NCBI RefSeq assembly: GCF_004833285.1
Contig: NZ_STFG01000002.1
Coordinates: 248,001 to 312,000, forward strand
Direction: 5' to 3'
Length of the DNA: 64,000 nt
From: Lampropedia puyangensis
Lineage (GTDB): Bacteria > Pseudomonadota > Gammaproteobacteria > Burkholderiales > Burkholderiaceae_C
Shown here: positions 53,209-63,904 of the stretch, piece after piece
Position numbering within the stretch: the stretch's first letter is position 1
Layout of the letters: the number at the start of each line of letters is the position of its first letter
The notes under the pieces: generated by a model
Databases searched by the model: none
Told to the model about the DNA's origin: nothing
The model's input: only the letters and a program-made list of their open reading frames with translations
Translations under genes and position numbers: made by a program

Positions 53209-53661
53209 TTAAGTTGCAGCGACTTGCCAAAGAGTTCCCCCCTTTATTATGTTCTCTATCGTCAGACCGTCTGCGGGGTCGGCAAAGGAACCTTGATCTG
53301 TATCGCATCCCCAGCCTGTGAGACTTGGATCATCCTGATCGCAGCATTCCCACAAGGACATACATCTCGCCATTTCAGGCAGATGTGATGCTGTCATTGC
53401 AGGCGGCACAATGACAAAGACGGTAGCGTTTTCCCATGGATTCTCTTGCAAAATCCCCGCTGCCAGTCCTGCTTTTGTGGCAATGAAGTGCGTGCGGCGA
53501 CGATAGATACTGCCGTCAAGCTCCTTGACTGGTAGCACCCCATGGATATGCCAAACAGGTTGCCCCACCAGTACTTCTGCAATCGGGTAGTGCCGAATTG
53601 GTGGCTCTTGATCGGCGAAGGCCATCATGGGTTGCTCGAAGCGCTTTTCTAATTGAAGCAT
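53209..53661 (-). CDS. Hypothetical protein of an accessory three-gene unit
   Basis: 150 residues from ATG 53661, preceded by GAAAGGG at 8 bp (TTG 53676 is an alternative). It is soluble, with no signal peptide or helix. Cysteine-rich near the C terminus ('SLWECCDQDDPSLTGWGCDTDQG'). I do not recognise a family. It lies 206 bp downstream of the membrane protein gene on the same strand and may be the last gene of the regulator-controlled unit. Confidence 0.55.
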   Translation of the reverse strand: MLQLEKRFEQPMMAFADQEPPIRHYPIAEVLVGQPVWHIHGVLPVKELDGSIYRRRTHFIATKAGLAAGILQENPWENATVFVIVPPAMTASHLPEMARCMSLWECCDQDDPSLTGWGCDTDQGSFADPADGLTIENIIKGGTLWQVAAT

Positions 53662-53867
53662 TGATGGCCCTTTCAAAGGCAGAGCAGGTTTTTGATCGGT
53701 AAGCAGGTAACAGTCGACTCATACCTTGCGCAGTTGTGAAATTTTCTTCGACTACTTCCATGCGAAAGCTACCGGAGAACAGCGAGAGCAAAAGGTTGAG
53801 GGTTGAGATGGCCGTGAATCATGACGAGCAACGCGCTTTTGCGAGTACCCGAAAAATGTGAGCTTAA

Positions 53868-54323
53868 TTATTTTTGAAACAGCCAATTCACGGTTAAAGC
53901 AAAAGCAAACCATGAGGCCGCAATTGCTGCCGGTAGCAATAGGATTGTTCGCCAATAGCGCTGCACGCGCAGTAACTGCAGTACAGCCATAAAAGCACCT
54001 ATCAACATTGGAATACCCACTAAACCGTACGCCGTGACAGCCAAACCACCAAGCACATAATTGAGATTCTTGTATCCAGTCAGGCTGGATGCATAGGACC
54101 AAATTGGTCCAAACCATTGCAATGGTTTCATGACCAGGTAGTAGTAATAGGCCGCAATGTATTTGAAGGGATGTGGCAGAGTTTGCCATTGCGGCAACGT
54201 ATCCCACAAGAACCAACCCATGCCCACCAGCAAGGCAAGAATGGTGATTCTTCCTTGAGGAATATCCGGCAGTGCAGTGATCGAGCCTTTGTAATTCCCG
54301 TTTTCGTCGTAGAGGTAAGCCAT
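53868..54323 (-). CDS. Hypothetical multi-pass membrane protein
   Basis: 151 residues with about three to four hydrophobic helices (residues 27-45, about 60-75 with a YYYYL run, 95-120 and 130-148). It has a polar N-terminal 25 residues (MAYLYDENGNYKGSITALPDI) and no recognised family. It lies 84 bp after the lipoprotein gene on the same strand. It is probably inner-membrane and partners the lipoprotein in an unknown envelope function. Confidence 0.55.
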   Translation of the reverse strand: MAYLYDENGNYKGSITALPDIPQGRITILALLVGMGWFLWDTLPQWQTLPHPFKYIAAYYYYLVMKPLQWFGPIWSYASSLTGYKNLNYVLGGLAVTAYGLVGIPMLIGAFMAVLQLLRVQRYWRTILLLPAAIAASWFAFALTVNWLFQK

Positions 54324-54407
54324 GGCGAGTGCCTATTGCAAATGTTTGGATATGACCAGCGTAAAGTCATTGATCAAGATATTTCAATGCTGGACTGGTC
54401 AAGCGGC

Positions 54408-55151
54408 TCATTTGAGATTTTTGATCCAGAAGCGCCGCTCATCGATTGTGAAGTTGGGGTCGTAGCCCACCACCGTAAGCAGCGAACCCACGTAGTACAG
54501 GCCGAACTGATTCAGCAACCACTGCTCCATGGCCTGATCGCTCGGCAATTTGTTGTATAGCGGTGTTGGACCGTCTCCTCGGACTTGCCCGGTGGTCTTG
54601 CCTGGAACAGGGAAACTTTTCCATGTCACCACGAAGTCATTGGACTGCCTTGGCAATTCCTTGGCGCAAAGCGATAAGCCGGAAAACCGCTCCACTCGCT
54701 TGGCATCACGCCACAACACAGCGTCAAAGTTGATGCACTCAGATGCCTTCAGCGAAAGGCTACGAGCCATCGTCATCTGACCATCAGGGATTTGCAGGTT
54801 GGTAATCACAACCTTTGGCCACTCAGGAGCGCGACCATCTGTCGAGAGGTTGCTCTTCAGGACATTGCGCAAGGGGGTGCTTAGCACGCTGTTGCTGCTT
54901 TGGGCAGTAGAAGAGCCGCCTATGCTCTGGCTGAGTTCACTTGAAATCGTTTGCCCCAGATTGCTCAAGGAACCGAATGCATCTTGGACGCCTGTCGTTG
55001 CGCACCCTGTTAGCAAGATAGGCACAAGCACCGCACACCAGGGTGCAACATGAGGCAATTCCTTTCGACGCGAAATAGCAAGGGCATCCCGTTCTGCACA
55101 CGGGTGTTTGCCTGCTTGCGCGGTTACTTTATTCTCCTGAACCCTATACAT
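54408..55151 (-). CDS. Hypothetical lipoprotein under a divergent regulator
   Basis: 247 residues from ATG 55151, preceded by GGAGGGG at 5 bp, an excellent ribosome site. The N-terminal 50 residues end in a lipobox (LLTGC, Cys 50); the leader is long and basic. The mature part is Ser/Gly-rich then globular, with a Trp-rich end. No known family was recognised. Its promoter (-35 GTGACA, 17 bp, -10 TAAAAT) carries two 18-bp repeats that look like XRE regulator boxes. Confidence 0.6.
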   Translation of the reverse strand: MYRVQENKVTAQAGKHPCAERDALAISRRKELPHVAPWCAVLVPILLTGCATTGVQDAFGSLSNLGQTISSELSQSIGGSSTAQSSNSVLSTPLRNVLKSNLSTDGRAPEWPKVVITNLQIPDGQMTMARSLSLKASECINFDAVLWRDAKRVERFSGLSLCAKELPRQSNDFVVTWKSFPVPGKTTGQVRGDGPTPLYNKLPSDQAMEQWLLNQFGLYYVGSLLTVVGYDPNFTIDERRFWIKNLK

Positions 55152-55160
55152 AACCCCTCC

Positions 55161-55218
55161 AAAATGTCACTCATAGAGTCCATTTTAGATCGATATCCAT
55201 AAAATGTCACTTATAGAG
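55161..55218. promoter_or_regulatory. Two 18-bp direct repeats over the lipoprotein promoter (controller-type boxes)
   Basis: AAAATGTCACTCATAGAG (55161-55178) and AAAATGTCACTTATAGAG (55201-55218), 40 bp apart. The core ACTYATAGAG is partly palindromic (ACTCATAGAGT in the first copy) and resembles C-protein boxes of restriction-modification controllers. The right copy covers the -35 of the minus-strand lipoprotein promoter; the left copy covers its expected start point. Confidence 0.6.
55182..55210 (-). promoter_or_regulatory. Minus-strand promoter of the lipoprotein unit
   Basis: -35 GTGACA (55210-55205), 17-bp spacer, -10 TAAAAT (55187-55182), one mismatch each from consensus. The lipoprotein ATG is 31 bp downstream. 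Confidence 0.65.
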
Positions 55219-55286
55219 CGGGAACTTATTGGGCGTGGCCTTAAATAAGGGGTACCCATAGCATCCTTTCCTTTTAGGAGAGAAGG

Positions 55287-55532
55287 ATGCCGACGGATCC
55301 CAAAAGGCTTTTTGGCTTGAGATTGATAGAGCTGAGGAAGGCCAAAGGATGGTCACAGGAACGTTTGGCTCTGGAGAGTGGCCTAGCACGCAGCTACCTT
55401 GGCGGTGTGGAGCGCGGGCACCGGAACATCGCACTGCTCAACATCGTCAAGTTGGCAGAGACGCTGGAGGTCGCCGCCCCAGCTTTGCTTGAGTTGCCTG
55501 CGGAGGCTGTAGGCCCTGACAATATTAAGTAG
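55287..55532 (+). CDS. XRE-family regulator of the restriction-modification controller type
   Basis: 81 residues, a single HTH domain: 'LFGLRLIELRKAKGWSQERLALESGLARSYLGGVERGHRNIALLNIVKLAETLEVAAPALLEL'. The size and 'YLGGVERGHRN' recognition region match C-type controllers (for example C.AhdI-like) of restriction-modification systems, but no methyltransferase or endonuclease is adjacent. Ribosome site AGGAG ends 6 bp before ATG. GCATCCTT (55261-55268) can pair with AAGGATGC (55283-55290), which covers the start codon. Confidence 0.85.
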   Translation: MPTDPKRLFGLRLIELRKAKGWSQERLALESGLARSYLGGVERGHRNIALLNIVKLAETLEVAAPALLELPAEAVGPDNIK

Positions 55533-55928
55533 CGTGTTGCGCCTACTATTGCTGGTTCCTATTGCAGGATGCCATAGATCCAGCGAGGGATTCGTGCTGT
55601 TGGAAAGAGTTCTTCAGACACTGGAGTGAATTTGCTCATCCGGGATTTTCCGCAGATTCCTCCGAGTACAACAAGCGGACACACGATTTTTGCAGCATCC
55701 AAAGTCAGCGCTTTTTTTGATTCGACTCAAAAAGTTGCACTCACTTAAATTAGAGGTTCGATGCTATTTATAGCAGGTCGAAGCACATTGTAAAATAATG
55801 TGCAATTTCCGCTTTCGGCCAAAAGCGGAAGTTCGCTTGACCACTAGCTCAATAAAAAAACTCGACAAGCTGATCCTTTGGGCAGGGAGTCCAAAAATGA
55901 AAATTTTATTGATTAAGAGGGATACGTG
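55533..55928 (+). other. Leader region before the Qat genes
   Basis: 396 bp without a recognised gene. Two hairpins sit close together: GCACATT/AATGTGC (55783-55803) and TTCCGCTTT/AAAGCGGAA (55807-55830). AGAGGG precedes the qatA ATG at 55929. The promoter of the Qat operon is probably here but no clear -35/-10 pair was identified. Confidence 0.45.
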
Positions 55929-57884
55929 ATGATCCTGCCAGACAACGAGACGAAAGTTGACCTACTTAACAATGAAGCCATCGCTAAGACGATCATCGCG
56001 CTACTGAGGGAGCGCCCTGAAAGTCCTGTGACGATAGGCGTGCACGGTGACTGGGGCGCCGGCAAGTCGAGCGTTCTGGAGATGGTCGAGGCGCAACTCG
56101 AGAAGGACGAGAAGGTCCTCTGTCTCAAGTTCAATGGCTGGCGGTTTCAAGGCTTCGAAGACGCCAAGATCGCCCTCATCGACGGAATCGTTGATGGCCT
56201 GTTGGAGCAGCGGCCCGCACTAAGAAAGGCCACCGGGGCCCTCAAAGAAGTCGCAAAGAGTATCGACCTTCTCAAGGTCGCCAAGAAGGCCGGCGGGCTG
56301 GCATGGACAGCATTCACAGGTATTCCGACACCAGACCAAGTCGCGGGCATAGTTTCGACTTTGCAAAGCTGGCTTTCCGACCCCGCGGCCTTGGCGACCA
56401 AAGAGAACATCGACGGTGCGATCGAAGGCGTGAAGTCTGTAATGACGCCTCGAGAATCCAAGAGCGTTCCTCGCGAGGTCGAAGCGTTCCGTGAAGCATT
56501 TGACAAGCTGCTGGTCGAAGCAGAAGTCGACCAGTTGATCGTCCTGATCGATGACTTAGACCGCTGTCTTCCTGACGTCGCGATTGAAACCCTCGAAGCA
56601 ATACGGCTGCTCGTTTTCACATCACGCACCGCCTTCGTGGTGGCAGCGGATGAAGCGATGGTTGAATATGCCGTTCGCAAGCATTTTCCTGACCTTCCTG
56701 AAACGACAGGACCACGCGACTACGCGCGGAACTACCTTGAAAAACTCATTCAGGTCCCATTCCGGATTCCCGCGCTGGGTGAGACGGAAACCCGCATCTA
56801 TGTCGCACTGCTGCTGGCCGGCGCGGAGTTGGGGGAAGACGACGCCAGTTTTGGGCAACTGATCGAAGTCGCCAGAGAGCGCCTGAAGCGCCCGTGGGAA
56901 AGTACGGCCCTCGACTCTGACACAGTGAAGAAGGCCTTGGGTGACAAGGCGGAGAAGACGCACAACGCATTGATGCTCAGCGACCAGATTGGCCCCATAC
57001 TCGCAAGCGGTGCAAAGGGCAATCCCCGTCAGATCAAGCGGTTCCTGAACACGCTGCTGCTCAGAGAAAAGACCGCTGCGGCGCGCGGCTTTGGAGCAGA
57101 CATCAAGCTGCCGGTGCTGGCCAAACTCATGCTGCTGGAACGCTTCACCCCTCGGCTTTTTGACCAGATTGCGTCGGTCGCTGCAGTCCATCCGAAAGGA
57201 CATTGCCAAGACCTCGCCAGCCTCGAAGCCTTCGCCAGCGCAGATCAGGCACCGCCTGCACCCATCCCTGCGGCCGATGCAAAAACGAGCAAAACGGCAG
57301 ATGCTGGAAAGGCCGTCAAGGAAGACTCGGCTGCACTCCAGGAGTGGAAGGCCACTGAGGCAATGTGCTCTTGGGCCCGGGTGCAGCCAGCGATCGGCAG
57401 TCTTGACCTCCGGCCTTACCTTTTCGTGACACGCGACAAGAAGGACTTCTTCGGCCCCATCTCAACACTCGGACACCTCTCCGCAGTTGCCGACAAGTTG
57501 TTTGGCCCCAGGCTGGTTGTGCTGGGATACCTCGAAGAGCTCAAGCAGTTGAAGCCTGCAGAAGCAGACAAGGTGTTTGAGGCGATACGCAGCAGAATTG
57601 TAGGAGCGGACACGTTCGACCTAGCGCCTGAAGGCATCGCAGGGCTCAAGGTCCTAGTTCAAGCGCAGCCGCTGTTGCAGGCACGCCTGGTCGACTTTCT
57701 CGAGGCGCTGCCGAAGTCGCGCTGTGGCGCCTGGGTTGTCAGCGGATGGCAAGGCGTCATCACCGAAGGTTCGTGCATCACGCGTTTTGAAGTGCTTCTG
57801 GACTCGTGGAGCAAAGCTCCGAGCAGCCAGGAGTTGAGAGCTGCGGCACAAGCGGTTGCCAAACAGCCGAAAGGCAAAAACTAA
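55929..57884 (+). CDS. qatA: QatA, KAP-family P-loop ATPase of the Qat anti-phage system
   Basis: 651 residues from ATG 55929 (GTG 55926 also possible; AGAGGG is upstream). Walker A 'GDWGAGKSSVLEMV' starts at residue 40; Walker B 'IVLIDDLDRCLPDVAIETLEAIRL' is near 200-224. Regions 'KGNPRQIKRFLNTLLL' and 'FGPISTLGHLSAVADKLFG' fit the KAP NTPase group. First of four adjacent genes qatA-D, which together were shown to protect against phage in Escherichia (established knowledge of the family). Its base composition is clearly richer in G+C than the host core. Confidence 0.92.
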   Translation: MILPDNETKVDLLNNEAIAKTIIALLRERPESPVTIGVHGDWGAGKSSVLEMVEAQLEKDEKVLCLKFNGWRFQGFEDAKIALIDGIVDGLLEQRPALRKATGALKEVAKSIDLLKVAKKAGGLAWTAFTGIPTPDQVAGIVSTLQSWLSDPAALATKENIDGAIEGVKSVMTPRESKSVPREVEAFREAFDKLLVEAEVDQLIVLIDDLDRCLPDVAIETLEAIRLLVFTSRTAFVVAADEAMVEYAVRKHFPDLPETTGPRDYARNYLEKLIQVPFRIPALGETETRIYVALLLAGAELGEDDASFGQLIEVARERLKRPWESTALDSDTVKKALGDKAEKTHNALMLSDQIGPILASGAKGNPRQIKRFLNTLLLREKTAAARGFGADIKLPVLAKLMLLERFTPRLFDQIASVAAVHPKGHCQDLASLEAFASADQAPPAPIPAADAKTSKTADAGKAVKEDSAALQEWKATEAMCSWARVQPAIGSLDLRPYLFVTRDKKDFFGPISTLGHLSAVADKLFGPRLVVLGYLEELKQLKPAEADKVFEAIRSRIVGADTFDLAPEGIAGLKVLVQAQPLLQARLVDFLEALPKSRCGAWVVSGWQGVITEGSCITRFEVLLDSWSKAPSSQELRAAAQAVAKQPKGKN

Positions 57885-58781
57885 ATGGGAACCTCAACAG
57901 CTTACGGCGGCCCAGGAGGCGACACGCCACTCGTGCCTTCTTGGCTTGGTGATGACGGTGGCGGGAACCCGCCTGGACCTGCCTCTCCAACGCCAAGTCC
58001 CACTCCTCCTAACAATCCTCCCCCGCCGAACCCACCAATCACGCCACCGCGGACGCCGCCGAGGCAGCCGATCCCACCAGCGGCCGATCCCCATCGTTAC
58101 ACAGCGCCGCGCGGGAATTTCACCCGATTCGCACGGTCGGGGGGCAGTGATCGGGCGAGTCTAGGCAGAGCAGTCTCTCAGTACGTCTCCTCCGCTTCGG
58201 GCGGCTCTCGCCAAGCCGCTCAGCGTATGGGTGCATCGCGTGTAGCTGGCGCCCGACTGGTCAGCTTCCTCGCCGACGCACAGGCGCGCGGCCCTCAAGC
58301 GGCACTGCGCACGCTGAACCTAGAGTCACTCGCCGGGAGACCGTTGCCTGAGATTCTGGTTGGCTTGGCTGACCATGTTTGCCCGGGCGCGGGAACTGTC
58401 GACGAGGGCATCGCACGCGAAGCCTATGTAGAAACAATCGTCGAACTGACCTCCGCTGGCATTACAGATCTCGACGCGCTCACAGCCGACCAGATGTTGA
58501 CGGTCTTCGAGATCTACGCGACGCACGCCATCGAAGCGCGCATCTGCAACGACATTGGCACCAAAGCCATCACGATGCCGGCCGATGCGCAGGCAGCGAT
58601 CCGTGTAGAGGCGCAGCTGCGCGATTTCATCCGTAATGGGGTGAGCGACGCTTTGGCAGATGCCCGTGGCCCCAGTGCTGCCCCACTGAGCTCAAACCGG
58701 GTCCAGAGCTTTGTGGATCAGGTTTACGAAGACGCCTTCAGGTTCTTGCATGCCCGGGGCGAAGCGGAGAGCGACCAATGA
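57885..58781 (+). CDS. qatB: QatB, hypothetical protein of the Qat system
   Basis: 298 residues. It starts directly after the qatA stop and overlaps qatC by 4 bp. A Pro/Gly/Ser/Thr-rich N-terminal third (about 20-65) with PxP repeats is followed by a helical domain ('ARSGGSDRASLGRAVSQYVSSASGGSRQAAQRMGASRVAGARL' about 85-125). Fits the QatB component of Qat: unknown function, required for defence. The call rests on gene order and size. Confidence 0.8.
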   Translation: MGTSTAYGGPGGDTPLVPSWLGDDGGGNPPGPASPTPSPTPPNNPPPPNPPITPPRTPPRQPIPPAADPHRYTAPRGNFTRFARSGGSDRASLGRAVSQYVSSASGGSRQAAQRMGASRVAGARLVSFLADAQARGPQAALRTLNLESLAGRPLPEILVGLADHVCPGAGTVDEGIAREAYVETIVELTSAGITDLDALTADQMLTVFEIYATHAIEARICNDIGTKAITMPADAQAAIRVEAQLRDFIRNGVSDALADARGPSAAPLSSNRVQSFVDQVYEDAFRFLHARGEAESDQ

Positions 58782-60154
58782 AGAGACACGTAATTGCCGG
58801 CCGCTACGGCCCAGAGGACCGTACGCCGATCCAAGTCAACGACGACGAGCAACTGACCGACCTACAGCTGATCATCGGTGATCGGACGCTTGATCACGGC
58901 ATCGGCGCAGCTCTGACCAGCCTCAAGGCGCTAGGTGCCCATCCTTCAGAGATGGGGATTGATCTCGCGGTTGTTGCGGCCCACGTCCACGCGGCAGACA
59001 CGCGCATCTCAAGGGCCCACGAATCTCAAGACTCATGGACCCGAGAAGTTCGTTTGGTGATCCCGGTTCACGACCCGGACACGTGGTCCGCAGCGACTGG
59101 GACGCTGACCACGCTACTGAACTTCTTAACCGGGGACCGCTGGGCACTCCAGTTCCGTGAGCGCTCTGAGCGATTCGCGACGCTTGTTCCGGCGAACGCA
59201 GCCTCTCTGCTTCCACCTCCATTCACAGCGCTCAGCTTGTTCTCTGGTGGTCTGGACAGCCTCATTGGCGCCATTGATCTGCTCGAGCGTCAAGCCGAGC
59301 CTCTGCTGGTCAGCCATTTCGGCGAGAGCGCAACAAGTGACGCTCAGAACAAACTGTTCAACTTCTTGAAGAAGCGCTACCCGAACCGGCCGTTTGACCG
59401 TCTACGTGTCGATATGGTGTTTCCAGTTGGCCTGGTGAAAGATGTGCAGTCCGAGAACAGTACGAGAGGACGCTCCTTCCTCTTCATAGCCCTCGGAGCT
59501 TTGGCTGGTACTGGCCTCGCTGACGGCTTCACGCTCCGGGTTCCCGAGAATGGCCTCATCGCGCTGAACGTACCTCTTGACCCGTTGCGTCTGGGATCCA
59601 ACAGCACAAGGACGACCCACCCCTTTTACTTGGCTCGTTGGAATGACCTTCTTGCCCAACTCGGTGTCGCAGGCCGTGTCGAGAACCCATACTGGAGCTT
59701 GACGAAAGGAGAGATGGTTCGTGGGTGCGAGAACGAAGCTGCCTTGCGCGAGATCGCGTCATCGTCTCTTTCTTGCGCACACCCCGCCAGCGCGCGATGG
59801 CAGGGGCTGCAGGGTAGAGGCATTGAGCATTGCGGCTACTGCCTTCCTTGCCTGATCCGGCGCGCTGCGTTGGAGCACGCGTGGGGCCGAGGCGGCGACA
59901 ATACGAGCTATACCGAAGCTGACCTGCACGCCCACATCCTGGACACGAGCCAATCGATCGGACAGCAAGTTCGCTCGTTCCAATATGCAATCGCGCGGAT
60001 TCAGGCCAATCCCGACATCGCCCGGCTGTTGGTACACAAGCCAGGATCACTGGTTGATGTGATGGCAGACGAAGAGCAATGGGCAGCGGTGTATCGCCGG
60101 GGCCTCAGCGAAGTCGGCGACCTAATTGCCGGTGTTCGTACCGCTCCAGTCTAG
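58778..60154 (+). CDS. qatC: QatC, QueC-like enzyme of the Qat system
   Basis: 458 residues. PP-loop 'LSLFSGGLDSLIGAIDLLERQAEPLLVSHFGESA' near 150-185 and zinc-type 'CAHPASARW' with 'HCGYCLPCLIRRAALEHAWG' (about 335-370) are QueC features. The N-terminal 130 residues are an added domain absent from housekeeping QueC. QueC makes the deazapurine precursor preQ0; Qat is described as using a QueC-like component in anti-phage defence. The gene overlaps qatB. Confidence 0.88.
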   Translation: MKRHVIAGRYGPEDRTPIQVNDDEQLTDLQLIIGDRTLDHGIGAALTSLKALGAHPSEMGIDLAVVAAHVHAADTRISRAHESQDSWTREVRLVIPVHDPDTWSAATGTLTTLLNFLTGDRWALQFRERSERFATLVPANAASLLPPPFTALSLFSGGLDSLIGAIDLLERQAEPLLVSHFGESATSDAQNKLFNFLKKRYPNRPFDRLRVDMVFPVGLVKDVQSENSTRGRSFLFIALGALAGTGLADGFTLRVPENGLIALNVPLDPLRLGSNSTRTTHPFYLARWNDLLAQLGVAGRVENPYWSLTKGEMVRGCENEAALREIASSSLSCAHPASARWQGLQGRGIEHCGYCLPCLIRRAALEHAWGRGGDNTSYTEADLHAHILDTSQSIGQQVRSFQYAIARIQANPDIARLLVHKPGSLVDVMADEEQWAAVYRRGLSEVGDLIAGVRTAPV

Positions 60155-60166
60155 AGGGTGTCAGCC

Positions 60167-60925
60167 ATGCTTCCGATCCAAGGCCTCATCGACTTTCACT
60201 GTCATCTCGATCTCTATCCCGACCATGCCGCCGCTATTCATGAAGCAGAGGCCGCCGGCGTGTTCACTCTCGCGGTTACAACCACCCCAAAAGCGTGGCC
60301 CCGCAATCACGAGCTAACACGAAAGACTAAGCACGTCAGGGCGGCCTTGGGATTGCATCCCCAGTTGGTGAGCAGCCGAGCGGCTGAAATAGCTTTGTGG
60401 GAGTCGTTGTTACCACAGACTCGGTTCGTCGGAGAGGTTGGCCTAGACGCTGGCCCTCGGTTCTACAAGTCGTTGGATGCCCAAAAAGCGGTCTTCACTC
60501 AAGTGCTGAAAGCGTGTGCGGCAGCAGGAGGGAAGATCATCAGTGTGCATAGTGTGCGCACCGCTACCGCGGTGCTTGATCACATCGAAGAACACCTGCC
60601 GCCAGGATCCAATCGAGTCATTCTGCACTGGTTTAACGGCTCCAAGTCGGAGGCGGCTCGTGCTATCGAAATGGGGTGCTACTTTTCAGTTAACAGTAAT
60701 ATGCTAAAGAGCGAGAGGGCCACAGCTCTTATAAAGACGTTGCCATTCAGCCGGCTACTTACTGAAACCGATGGGCCCTTCACCGAAACTGCTGGTCGGC
60801 AATCAAAACCCACTGATGTTGCAGAAACAGTGCAGCTGCTAGCTGAATTACACAACACTCCTGTCTCGACGTTAATTAAGAAAATGAATCAAAATCTCCG
60901 CGAGTTGCTTGAACAGAGCAGATGA
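60167..60925 (+). CDS. qatD: QatD, TatD-like metal-dependent nuclease of the Qat system
   Basis: 252 residues from ATG 60167 (AGAGGG 8 bp upstream; GTG 60158 possible). The TatD fold shows metal ligands in 'IDFHCHLD' (His 11, His 13), 'VGEVGLDAGP' (Glu), 'IISVHS' (His), 'LHWFNG' (His) and 'LLTETDGPF' (Asp). TatD proteins are 3'-5' DNases. Gene order completes Qat. It lies 12 bp after the qatC stop, in the same transcript. Confidence 0.9.
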   Translation: MLPIQGLIDFHCHLDLYPDHAAAIHEAEAAGVFTLAVTTTPKAWPRNHELTRKTKHVRAALGLHPQLVSSRAAEIALWESLLPQTRFVGEVGLDAGPRFYKSLDAQKAVFTQVLKACAAAGGKIISVHSVRTATAVLDHIEEHLPPGSNRVILHWFNGSKSEAARAIEMGCYFSVNSNMLKSERATALIKTLPFSRLLTETDGPFTETAGRQSKPTDVAETVQLLAELHNTPVSTLIKKMNQNLRELLEQSR

Positions 60926-61236
60926 CTTGGAAATCGTAATCGACCTGTTTTTCTGGTGATCTTCAGTTGGCTCTGCAGCCATCTGCATTTCAACTTTAAG
61001 GGTTAATCAGGAAAAGAACATAAAGGGCAGTTGCTGCTGCGAAGCAGTATCTAGAGAATTACCCCAGTCGAACTAGCACTTTGTGTCGACTGTTGGTATT
61101 TAGAGTTGGTCACCACAGTGATGCCTGCACAGACCAGCTTAAAAGGAGCCGAACTAAGATGTTGAAAAGTGTCTAGGAAATACTGGACGATTCAGCCTGT
61201 TGTTTGCATATCGTCTAATTTAGTTATTACCCTCAA
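60926..61236. other. AT-rich gap after the Qat genes
   Basis: 311 bp, visibly lower in G+C than the Qat genes. A small hairpin CTGCT-GCGA-AGCAG lies near 61035-61048. No gene or strong repeat was found; there is no ribosome site before the next ATG. Confidence 0.4.
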
Positions 61237-61992
61237 ATGGCAACCAAGCATTTCGAATATATCGCGAACAAGATTGCTGCCGCAAAACACAATGCAGATA
61301 GCTTGTGTTCGAACATAGGTCACCGTGGCATGGAAGGAGAGATTCGCGAACTCGCAGTGAGAGAGTGTGTTGAACCATTCCTAACTCAAAGCTTTTCGTG
61401 TGGAACAGGAAAAGTCATCGACACATATCAATCCATATCAGATCAGATTGACTTGGTCGTGTACCATCGTAAGGTCGCACCGCCCATCCTCATAAGCAAA
61501 GATCTTGGCCTGTTCCCAGTTGAATGCGTTAGATATGTTTTCGAAATCAAATCAACGCTAACTGCAACAGAGCTAAAAGATGCGAACAAAAAATTTCGTT
61601 CCATTCGGAACTTGAAATCGTTTCCCAAAGTAGATGCAAAAGGAAACAAAACGAACGGAGGGCTTCCGGCAACAGTCTTATTCGCTTTTGGCTCAGACAT
61701 CGATGGGTCTGAAGTAGAGCGGTATATGAAACATACGAAAGACGACTGGCCACCTTGTACGGTCTTGTGCGTAATTGGCAAAGGGTATTGGGTCTTTGAT
61801 ACACCAACGCAGAAGTGGCACGGTGTCGATACGTCAAACTCGACCATCGAGAATGTTGAGTTCTCCATGTTCATCACTGGTTTTATGAACACTTTGGCAG
61901 CCGAGGAAACATCAATCCGGCCGTTTTATCCCGGGGCATATGTCAATTCTCAAGAAGTGTATTTTAAGGGTGTTGACGCTCCAGATGGCTAA
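61237..61992 (+). CDS. DUF6602-like PD-(D/E)XK nuclease-like protein
   Basis: 251 residues. 'GHRGMEGEIRELAVRECVEPFLTQSFSCGTG' then 'SDQIDLVVYHRK' (Asp 72) and 'CVRYVFEIKSTL' (Glu 103, Lys 105) give a D...E-x-K pattern on a beta-strand core, the signature of the PD-(D/E)XK nuclease fold; I relate it to DUF6602. Its G+C is lower than neighbours, a sign of separate transfer. Position directly behind Qat suggests a defence-island accessory. Function unproven. Confidence 0.6.
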   Translation: MATKHFEYIANKIAAAKHNADSLCSNIGHRGMEGEIRELAVRECVEPFLTQSFSCGTGKVIDTYQSISDQIDLVVYHRKVAPPILISKDLGLFPVECVRYVFEIKSTLTATELKDANKKFRSIRNLKSFPKVDAKGNKTNGGLPATVLFAFGSDIDGSEVERYMKHTKDDWPPCTVLCVIGKGYWVFDTPTQKWHGVDTSNSTIENVEFSMFITGFMNTLAAEETSIRPFYPGAYVNSQEVYFKGVDAPDG

Positions 61993-62453
61993 CTTAGCTT
62001 TCTTGGGAAAATCCCCCTGCAAGCATAGAAATACACCTGATGCCACAAGCTAGAGTTTTTACGGTCTGTGTAGGGTCGAAAATCGCCATTTGTATTGCCT
62101 GAAATGGGCCAGAATCAGTCCTAACATGCATCCCGGTAGGCGGCCACCACTTCAGGCTATTTACGGTAATGCAGCTGCGACGACTTTCCGACTCCTCTGC
62201 AGCGGGTAAAAAGTTCTGAAGGCTACAAAGAGGTCTCACACAGATTCGTAGCGAATGAGTGCAGACAGCGTGTTCGCGACATCTGCGCAACTCCTGCTCA
62301 GCTTCGGTATCGCTTCTAGCCAGAAGCAGATGGGTGCAAAGCAGCGGGGCAACGTGACCGGCTAATTTTCGACACCAACGCGCCAAGGTCACTTACAGTG
62401 GCCTAGAGACACGAGATACTCCCAATCAATTGACACAAGCTAAGAGGCTAAAG
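61993..62453. other. Gap between the nuclease-like and Ntn-hydrolase genes
   Basis: 461 bp with low G+C. A minus-strand frame near 61994-62392 is poorly supported and looks like chance. Nothing with repeats or RNA structure stood out. Confidence 0.35.
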
Positions 62454-62695
62454 ATGACTCTAGTAATTGCTGGCTATATGTTTGACGACCCAACTGCTGG
62501 CTACGTTTGGCCAAGCAGCATCGCCAAGCGCGAATCGAACGCAGCAGAGACCGCCGAGCCCAGCGGCATCTTCATCGCCGCAGATAGTACTATTTCTAGC
62601 AATACACCCCTCCCGAAGACGCTGCTCAGCGGCTTCCGGAAAATCTACGAAGTACGAGCAACTTTGTGGCGTCCATATTTCATCGGTGGGTACCT
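62454..62695 (+). pseudogene. Proteasome/HslV-like Ntn-hydrolase, 5' part interrupted by IS3
   Basis: N-terminal 80 residues from ATG 62454, preceded by AAGAGG at 6 bp. After Met removal the protein would start with Thr (TLVIAGYMFDD). 'GIFIAADSTISS' and 'LLSGFRKIYEV' place an Asp and a Lys as in proteasome beta/HslV active sites (Thr1, Asp17, Lys33 pattern). Reading breaks at the insertion element at 62696, after 'WRPYFIGGY'. Possible further fragment at 63970. It is therefore a truncated Ntn-hydrolase peptidase. Confidence 0.55.
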
Positions 62696-62735
62696 TGTAG
62701 TGGTCAAGTAATTTCGGACACGGCGATAAGAATTT

Positions 62736-63605
62736 TCAGGTTGGTTGCTGTGTTTGTCTGAATTTGCGCTCATACATCGCAGGCGAGCAGTAGCCCAGCG
62801 TTGAATGCAGTCGCACACGGTTGTAGAAGTTCACGATGTAGTCAGCAATATCGCAGCGCGCTTCTTGGTGATTGGCGTATGTTTTGCGCCATGTGCGCTC
62901 CATCTTGAGGTTCAAGAAGAATCGCTCCATGACTGCGTTGTCCCAGCAATTGCCTTTGCGGCTCATGCTGGCAATGAGCTGGTGCTTGGCCAAGAGCTGG
63001 CTGTACTGCGCACTGGCGTATTGACTGCCACGATCGGAATGCACAATCAGCCCCGGCTTTGGGTTGCGGCTGTTGATGGCCATCTGCAAAGCACAGCCAA
63101 CGAGCTGTGCATGCATGCTCGATGCCATTGCCCAGCCCACAATGCGGCGCGCATAAAGATCCATGACGGCAGCCAGATACAGCCAGCCGCTGCCTGTGCG
63201 GATGTAGGTGATGTCGCATACCCACGCCGTGTCGGGTGCTGTCGGCGTGAATTGGCGTGCGAGCACATTGCCAGCTATGAGCAAGTGGTGGTGGCTGTCA
63301 GTGGTGTGTACGAACTTTCTCTTCCACCTGGCTCGCAAACTGTGTTTTTGCATCAAGGTACGCGCACGGTGACGCCCTATGCGAAGCCCTTGCGCTTGCA
63401 AGGCCTGACTGATGCGCCGGCTGCCATAGGTTTGATCGCTCGCCTCAAACGTCGCCTTGACGCGCACAGCGTCAGCGCAAATCTGGTTTGCTCGGTTTTG
63501 CCGCGTGCGCCGTGCGTAAAGGCCCGATCGGCTCACGCCCAGCAGCGCACACAGTTTTGTAAGGGGTGCCTTCTTTGCCAACTCGGTGATGAGCTTGTCC
63601 ATCAC
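62736..63605 (-). CDS. IS3-family transposase OrfB (DDE integrase core)
   Basis: 289 residues. An HTH_21-type N-terminal region ('LCALLGVSRSGLYARRTRQNR') precedes the rve integrase core with acidic residues in 'DTAWVCDITYIRTGSGWLYLAAVMDLYARRIVGWA' (Asp), 'LIVHSDRGSQYAS' (Asp) and 'NAVMERFFLNLKME' (Glu). It ends with the IS3 pattern 'YNRVRLHSTLGYCSPAMYE'. The ATG overlaps the orfA stop by 4 bp (ATGA); no A6G slippery run is present. Confidence 0.95.
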   Translation of the reverse strand: MMDKLITELAKKAPLTKLCALLGVSRSGLYARRTRQNRANQICADAVRVKATFEASDQTYGSRRISQALQAQGLRIGRHRARTLMQKHSLRARWKRKFVHTTDSHHHLLIAGNVLARQFTPTAPDTAWVCDITYIRTGSGWLYLAAVMDLYARRIVGWAMASSMHAQLVGCALQMAINSRNPKPGLIVHSDRGSQYASAQYSQLLAKHQLIASMSRKGNCWDNAVMERFFLNLKMERTWRKTYANHQEARCDIADYIVNFYNRVRLHSTLGYCSPAMYERKFRQTQQPT

Positions 63606-63904
63606 TTGATTTGCCGGGCAAAGAAGGCAGATGCTTTTTTTAGCAAGGCATTGTCTGATTCGAGTTCTCGCAGCTGTTTCTCCAACTCACGGATGCGCAG
63701 CTGCTCTGGCGTAATCGGTTTGCCTGGGCCGGTGCGGCCCATCTTTTCTTGGCGCAATTGATTGACCCAGCGGCTCACCGCGGATCGGCTCAAGTCCATG
63801 TCTTGGCACACTTGCGATTGACTCAGGCCTTGCTCGACCACCATCGTGGCCACTTGAAGCCGAAAGGCATCATCAAAGTCTCTTCTTGCTCTTCTTTTGG
63901 TCAT
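63602..63904 (-). CDS. IS3-family transposase OrfA (HTH_Tnp_1)
   Basis: 100 residues: 'KRRARRDFDDAFRLQVATMVVEQGLSQSQVCQDMDLSRSAVSRWVNQLRQE' is the Tnp_1 helix-turn-helix. 'LRIRELEKQLRELESDNALLKKASAFFA' forms the leucine-zipper part. It is coupled with orfB through ATGA. Confidence 0.95.
   Translation of the reverse strand: MTKRRARRDFDDAFRLQVATMVVEQGLSQSQVCQDMDLSRSAVSRWVNQLRQEKMGRTGPGKPITPEQLRIRELEKQLRELESDNALLKKASAFFARQIK

Follow-up and report, generated by a model that had tools for sequence, protein, structure and literature searches.

The DNA analyzed here, a 64,000-nucleotide stretch of Lampropedia puyangensis contig NZ_STFG01000002.1 (hereafter referred to as the window), carries at positions 55926-60925 what its sequence identifies as a complete qatABCD operon of the known Qat anti-phage kind, with the genes in the published order. 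We consider it likely that this operon was acquired horizontally and works, that its QatC modifies glycine 2 (Gly2) of QatB, and that the donor of this modification is not 7-carboxy-7-deazaguanine (CDG) made by the host. PMC13279940 singles out the nature of the group added to QatB by QatC as the main open question on Qat. CDG is the proposed donor, and the available part of PMC13329287 describes the reaction as a proposed carboxydeazaguanylation.

The operon consists of four intact open reading frames (ORFs), all on the + strand and contiguous in the order A-B-C-D: qatA and qatB abut, qatB and qatC share 4 bases, and a gap of 3 bases separates qatC from qatD. The features are listed below, with NCBIfam scores in bits followed by the curated equivalog cut-offs.

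55929..57884, + strand: qatA, predicted KAP-family P-loop ATPase (NF041923, 904.2 against 600; KAP_NTPase PF07693, 2.2e-45)
57885..58781, + strand: qatB, predicted protein with a Pro-rich N-terminal tail (NF041924, 237.5 against 100; Protein Data Bank [PDB] QatB 9zee, 1.1e-46, residues 1-290)
57885..57896, + strand: QatB N-terminal MGTS motif, read from the sequence and aligned with the MGTS of PDB QatB
58778..60154, + strand: qatC, predicted QueC-like PP-loop enzyme (NF041925, 524.6 against 280; PDB QatC 9vlk, 1.4e-124, residues 1-457)
59243..59260, + strand: QatC SGGLDS pyrophosphate loop, residues 156-161; S156, G157, G158, D160 and S161 invariant in 89/89 QatC rows
59606..59614, + strand: QatC T277-R278-T279; T277 and T279 invariant in 89/89 rows
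59774..59851 (first to last), + strand: QatC zinc-site cysteines C333, C352, C355 and C358; invariant in 89/89 rows
60158..60925, + strand: qatD, predicted TatD-family nuclease (NF041926, 352.2 against 230; PF01026, 1.5e-49; PDB 3gg7, 6.3e-62)

The original prediction had placed four overlapping or near-contiguous genes at 55929-60925, and our coordinates agree with it. Its assignments also held, namely a KAP-type P-loop ATPase, a QueC-like PP-loop enzyme with a Cys-rich zinc site and an extra N-terminal part, and a TatD-like nuclease, arranged in the published Qat order. The profile search that it had proposed placed QatB and QatC far above their cut-offs in NCBIfam, and the PADLOC Qat models gave E-values of 1e-303 for QatA, 3.1e-131 for QatB, 1.5e-199 for QatC and 1.3e-120 for QatD. 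Two start codons share one frame for qatA (ATG at 55929 or GTG at 55926), as for qatD (GTG at 60158 or ATG at 60167). QatA contains GDWGAGKSS and LIVLIDDLDR, which we take to be the Walker A and a Walker B-like motif, respectively. In QatD, the HxH, E, H, H and D positions, presumably the TatD ligands, align with those of the TatD-family structure 3gg7.

For the Qat of Pseudomonas aeruginosa, a 1:1 complex of QatB with QatC is enough for defense against lambda-vir, and defense was abolished by QatC S156A/S161A, QatC T278A/T280A and QatB G2D (PMC13279940). QatA, which binds DNA, and QatD influence which phages are covered (PMC13279940). We compared the residues concerned across 89 QatC rows, comprising the window, 80 genome loci and 8 plasmid loci. 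P. aeruginosa QatC residues S156, D160, S161, R233, F237, T278 and T280 correspond to S156, D160, S161, R232, F236, T277 and T279 here, and its zinc cysteines C334/C354/C357/C360 to C333, C352, C355 and C358. All of these ATP-loop, Arg/Phe, Thr and zinc positions were identical in 89/89 sequences, including those of nine hosts lacking detectable CDG synthesis that are described below. K310 was likewise identical in 89/89, and D62 in 87 of 88, L121 being left out of this count as its sequence ends short of D62.

QatB begins MGTSTAYGGPGGDTPLVPSWL, so that an MGTS N-terminus precedes a long tail, as expected of Qat. Across the 88 loci other than the window, QatB began with MGTS in 71 and with GTS after a GTG start in 8 more (79/88). 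At four of the 88, blastp found no QatB (two were cut at contig ends), with L037 and L039 among these four nevertheless beginning MGTS; three had no motif (L060, L076 and L083), and in two the sole look-alikes were internal, in ORFs truncated at the end of a contig. Gly2 is presumed to be the acceptor residue, and QatB is the probable substrate of QatC. The original prediction had called the role of QatB and the QueC-like chemistry poorly explained. This still holds for the exact chemistry, and the reaction could not be reconstituted (PMC13279940). QatB, however, is now regarded as the protein on which QatC acts (PMC13279940), and QatB-QatC structures exist (PDB 9zee/9zef and 9vlk/9vll).

The operon is a further member of the known Qat kind. 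It shares with the qatABCD of P. aeruginosa and E. coli the gene order, the four families, the QatB MGTS, and the QatC SGGxDS, zinc cysteines and Thr pair, and differs in its site downstream of gyrB and in a host without detectable QueC, QueD and QueE. The best plasmid match, QatC of Delftia acidovorans NZ_CP065697.1 (a predicted conjugative plasmid), is 65% identical and lies in a qatABCD of the same order; that operon is on a plasmid beside genes of which some are annotated as restriction or toxin-like, whereas the one here is on a 313-kb contig beside gyrB. QatC shares the PP-loop fold, SGGxDS and zinc site with canonical QueC. However, it has extra N- and C-terminal regions beyond the QueC-like PP-loop part and scored 19.3 bits against PF06508, below the cut-off of 22 for a canonical QueC. 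In the available part of PMC13329287, an E. coli without queC did not regain queuosine when given E. coli QatC. Cap9 of the type IV cyclic-oligonucleotide-based anti-phage signaling system (CBASS) is, like QatC, a QueC-fold enzyme, and it targets the N-terminal glycine of another protein, as is presumed for QatC (PMC13279940). By contrast, QatC has extra terminal regions and carries Thr/Thr in place of the CDG-binding Tyr/Asp. A CD-NTase, as expected of a type IV CBASS, had no match among the ORFs scanned at 53209-63904.

If QatC needs host-made CDG, its hosts should have QueD and QueE. The L. puyangensis genome (3.97 Mb in 76 contigs, 99.57% complete) has one QatC. It gave no QueC over the cut-off, the sole TIGR00364 match at E 0.001 being a protein on contig C45 with 21.4 bits that is not QatC. 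We found no match to QueE at 1e-6 (TIGR03365) or at 1e-4 (TIGR04322, the E. coli-type model), and none to QueD (PF01242) at 1e-6. The enzymes for host-made CDG were thus undetected, with an assembly gap possible, although the host keeps TGT. The absence of QueC is particular to this lineage: eight of the nine congeners passed the QueC cut-off, and the remaining one (G008, 77% complete) came near it, with 144.7 bits against 150.3.

The nearest congener, G006, with 91% identity in the C-terminal part of GyrB, has queC-queE-queD in one cluster of about 1.8 kb. Its QueE scored 53.9 bits (TIGR03365) and 68.9 bits (TIGR04322) and its QueD 94.5 bits (PF01242), so similar genes in the host should have been seen. 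We scored 40 of 102 candidate places for this cluster in the host. In G006 (L157), the left flank is followed by queC-queE-queD and urease genes; in the host, the same flank lies within a 705-kb contig (G000:C1, about 65800; L169) and is followed by genes unmatched in the congener stretch. The cluster is therefore absent from that place, with an assembly gap elsewhere possible. Position decides little, however, because the queC neighborhoods of congeners G003 and G006 have queC alone in common (tblastn).

We extended the search to 49 Qat host genomes, picked for named isolates and diversity from 81 candidates (the host and 80 loci; L109 was left out). QueC was over the cut-off in 38 of the 49, QueE (TIGR03365, 1e-6) was found in 35 and PTPS/QueD (PF01242, 1e-6) in 33. 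All three were undetected in nine genomes, referred to here as CDG-negative: L. puyangensis, a Devosia metagenome-assembled genome (MAG; G073), Mesorhizobium ephedrae (G076), an Anaerolineales MAG (G077), a Verrucomicrobia MAG (G089), an uncultured Jannaschia (G094), a Chloroflexi MAG (G097), a Saccharibacteria MAG (G098) and Haematobacter missouriensis (G106). Two other genomes without QueC were partial cases, G075 having PTPS without QueE and G099 both QueE and PTPS. The second QueE model, TIGR04322 (1e-4, 17 genomes), gave no match in any of the nine. TGT was present in 8/9, with no match in G098.

The CDG-negative hosts are scattered over the QatC tree. This tree was built quickly and several of its branches are long, including that of the window. 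On it, the state required nine changes, at least five of them forced by supported branches, a count not below that of shuffled labels (mean 8.5; as low in 500/500 shuffles). Without the partial cases L074 and L111, the count was 8. We called an operon intact when every window protein was covered to 85% or more and QatB had the MGTS or GTG form. By this measure, operons were intact in 7/8 of the other CDG-negative hosts and in 35/40 of the remaining hosts, with two of those five failures at contig ends. Thus, the genome content argues, short of proof, against QatC depending on host-made CDG.

Several observations weigh against this conclusion. Some hosts had QueC but neither QueE nor PTPS (G069 and G074), some QueC and PTPS but no QueE by either model (G093 and G095), and Sphingomonas and its kin (G080, G081, G087, G092 and G105) QueC and QueE but no PTPS. 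Either each que model misses some members or those hosts are without a step; because single models may miss members, it is the triple absence that counts. Absence was called from profile searches of mostly draft genomes, with completeness given for G000 alone, and five of the eight other CDG-negative hosts are MAGs. In one of them (L076/G077), qatA and qatB are fragmented. QueC was also missing in 3/18 other family members without QatC, which shows that the pathway disappears outside Qat hosts as well. Hosts of Cap9, which does use CDG, could not serve as a positive control because no distinct Cap9 stood out in 396 genomes: the PADLOC QueC model PDLC00911 gave 85.7 bits at best, where a canonical QueC reached 83.9. 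Part of the genome-content result could also stem from salvage, from undetected genes or from operons that lie idle.

In the class of G072 (labelled Actinomycetes), QatC-like matches at 1e-20 occurred in 8/311 genomes, two of them over the cut-off. QueC was absent in 5/8 QatC-matching genomes versus 6/20 tested listed genomes without QatC; QueD and QueE were tested in G072 alone. G072 may be contaminated, given that its Qat region and the one in a Comamonas MAG (L070 and L059) agree at 99.99% identity over 8.3 kb.

One alternative is that QatC uses CDG as Cap9 does and that CDG-negative hosts, through salvage or from neighboring cells, acquire CDG or a 7-deazaguanine that can take its place. 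Cap9 attaches CDG to a glycine at the N terminus, and the tail and glycine of QatB are comparable (PMC13279940); the wording of PMC13329287, in its available part, points the same way. In addition, TGT is kept in 8/9 CDG-negative hosts, this one included, so some deazaguanine base is probably salvaged. We know of no uptake of CDG itself, however, and G098 is also without TGT. Moreover, the Tyr/Asp pair that recognizes CDG is Thr/Thr in 89/89 QatC rows. In P. aeruginosa QatC, T278/T280 stand where QueC and Cap9 have Tyr/Asp; converting the pair to Tyr/Asp abolished defense, and crystals grown in the presence of CDG did not show this molecule (PMC13279940). We therefore regard this alternative as possible but rather unlikely; the genome content, which weakens a dependence on host-made CDG, fits the replaced CDG-binding residues. 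In a literature search of partial coverage, we found no report in which Qat was tested with queD or queE deleted, and the main text of PMC13279940 mentions neither gene (queE 0, queD 0).

It is still less probable that the operon is intact but idle here, a recent passenger whose donor is missing. Such a passenger would be consistent with a host without detectable QueC, QueD and QueE, while its congeners have QueC (8/9 over the cut-off, the ninth partial), and with an operon that is foreign in composition and near insertion sequences at a contig end. However, all reading frames and checked residues are intact, as are the operons of most other hosts, CDG-negative or not. The ratio of nonsynonymous to synonymous substitutions for QatC among three CDG-negative hosts was 0.05-0.10, with synonymous sites near saturation in 2/3 pairs; much of the QatC evolution behind this ratio may have taken place in other hosts.

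We favor a working operon in which QatB and QatC would form a complex with the QatB tail in the QatC active site, as in published P. aeruginosa models and structures, the sequence being conserved here. After removal of Met1, ATP bound at SGGLDS would activate a carboxylate-bearing small molecule, QatC would join this molecule to QatB Gly2, and the modified QatB would restrict phage growth. The predicted ATPase QatA, which binds DNA, and the predicted TatD nuclease QatD may widen the phage range or regulate this core. Host-made CDG would be an unlikely donor, since CDG-making enzymes went undetected here and in several other hosts of Qat. Whether QatC joins a different, more universal carboxylate to Gly2, which would account for the persistence of Qat in hosts unable to make CDG, seems to us evenly balanced.

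The composition of the operon sets it apart from its surroundings. As predicted, its genes are richer in G+C (58.8% versus 53.4% in the rest of the window) and what follows is AT-richer, the next gene (61237-61992) having 45.1% G+C. The operon exceeded all 510 sliding 5-kb windows not touching it (maximum 57.2%), and its tetranucleotide deviation was 0.324 against a mean of 0.151 (sd 0.016), with 0/102 non-touching windows as high; qatD alone, at 53.3% G+C, was not unusual. QatC was over the cut-off in 2/60 genomes searched (the host included) and in 0/9 congeners. The earlier impression that the block was transferred is thus borne out by its foreign composition and its absence from congeners, on which the case for transfer of this copy rests.

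We compared the place next to gyrB with stretches following gyrB in seven of nine congeners, 15 kb long in five and 4.0 and 4.5 kb in two that reach contig ends (G004 and G008 were left out). The GyrB end was matched in 7/7, whereas 12 window proteins (53209-63904) had no tblastn match at 1e-3 after gyrB in any of the seven; the conserved housekeeping neighbors that would have spoken against transfer were therefore not seen. G005 and G007 have common genes downstream of gyrB, and in tblastx comparisons among the congener stretches this pair alone gave long matches above 90%; the longest pieces shown for other pairs were short and 21-37% identical, and we took them for noise. In G006, gyrB is directly followed (L027, 900-3878) by ABC-three-component proteins over the CTD9 and MC5 cut-offs and then by a transposase, the third protein of this cassette having AAA matches below the cut-off only. 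Because the window proteins are unmatched in these congeners and G006 has a different predicted defense cassette, the gyrB-adjacent place is variable, with predicted defense genes in two species, and the Qat operon was probably acquired horizontally into it. The contig ends 1164 bases past the window, inside a second transposase gene (rve type), leaving the right end of the island beyond reach.

Qat also moves in general, as shown by near-identical Qat regions across genera. The region of a Delftia plasmid (L034) is 100% identical to those of a Stenotrophomonas (L054) over 10.3 kb and a Variovorax MAG (L055) over 10.1 kb, and 99.99% identical to L057 over 13.3 kb; those of Luteimonas (L085) and Roseateles (L086) are 99.92% identical over 12.6 kb. 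QatC-like matches occurred in 117 plasmid records, of which 34 were predicted to be conjugative. None of the copies shared across genera is that of the window, whose QatC had a best identity of 69%, and plasmids gave no near DNA match to 55100-62700. We rejected a phage-borne origin, as QatC matched two Listeria phage records alone, and weakly.

Two neighboring genes lie on the same strand as the operon. A small helix-turn-helix (HTH) gene (55287-55532, + strand), about 400 bases upstream of qatA, resembles restriction-modification control proteins (PADLOC); no restriction-modification gene was found among the ORFs scanned near it. The DUF6602 gene downstream (61237-61992, + strand) encodes a protein resembling NucC nucleases (PDB NucC, 3.4e-11; PADLOC PD_DExK, 2.5e-33), possibly an independent defense nuclease. 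Their adjacency and these resemblances would suit a broader defense island in which both are functional parts of Qat. However, across the 88 loci, covered up to 6-8 kb on either side as far as each reaches, DUF6602 occurred in none and the HTH gene in two, weakly, and the G+C content of the DUF6602 gene differs sharply from that of the operon. We therefore rejected both genes as Qat parts, and such an island is very improbable and largely refuted.

Three further observations concern the surroundings of this and other Qat operons. In the stretch at window 62430-62711 and 62736-63904 and at L026, 1013-1381 and 1461-2162, an IS3-family element lies between two ORF pieces without Pfam matches, which look like one interrupted gene, and the second transposase gene (rve type) ends the contig. 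On a Bradyrhizobium plasmid (L041, 8001-10130), QatC and QatD occupy one open frame of about 710 amino acids, which suggests that they can be made as a fused protein. Locus L110 of the Saccharibacteria MAG (G098) has a full Qat operon in a 1.1-Mb genome without TGT, QueC, QueD or QueE matches, MAG contamination being possible.

Taken together, a predicted intact operon in a natural host without detectable CDG synthesis, along with eight other scattered hosts, bears on the open question of the Qat donor, that is, on the choice between the CDG model and a new protein modification. The place beside gyrB, where the nearest congener has a different predicted defense cassette, looks like a local defense hotspot.

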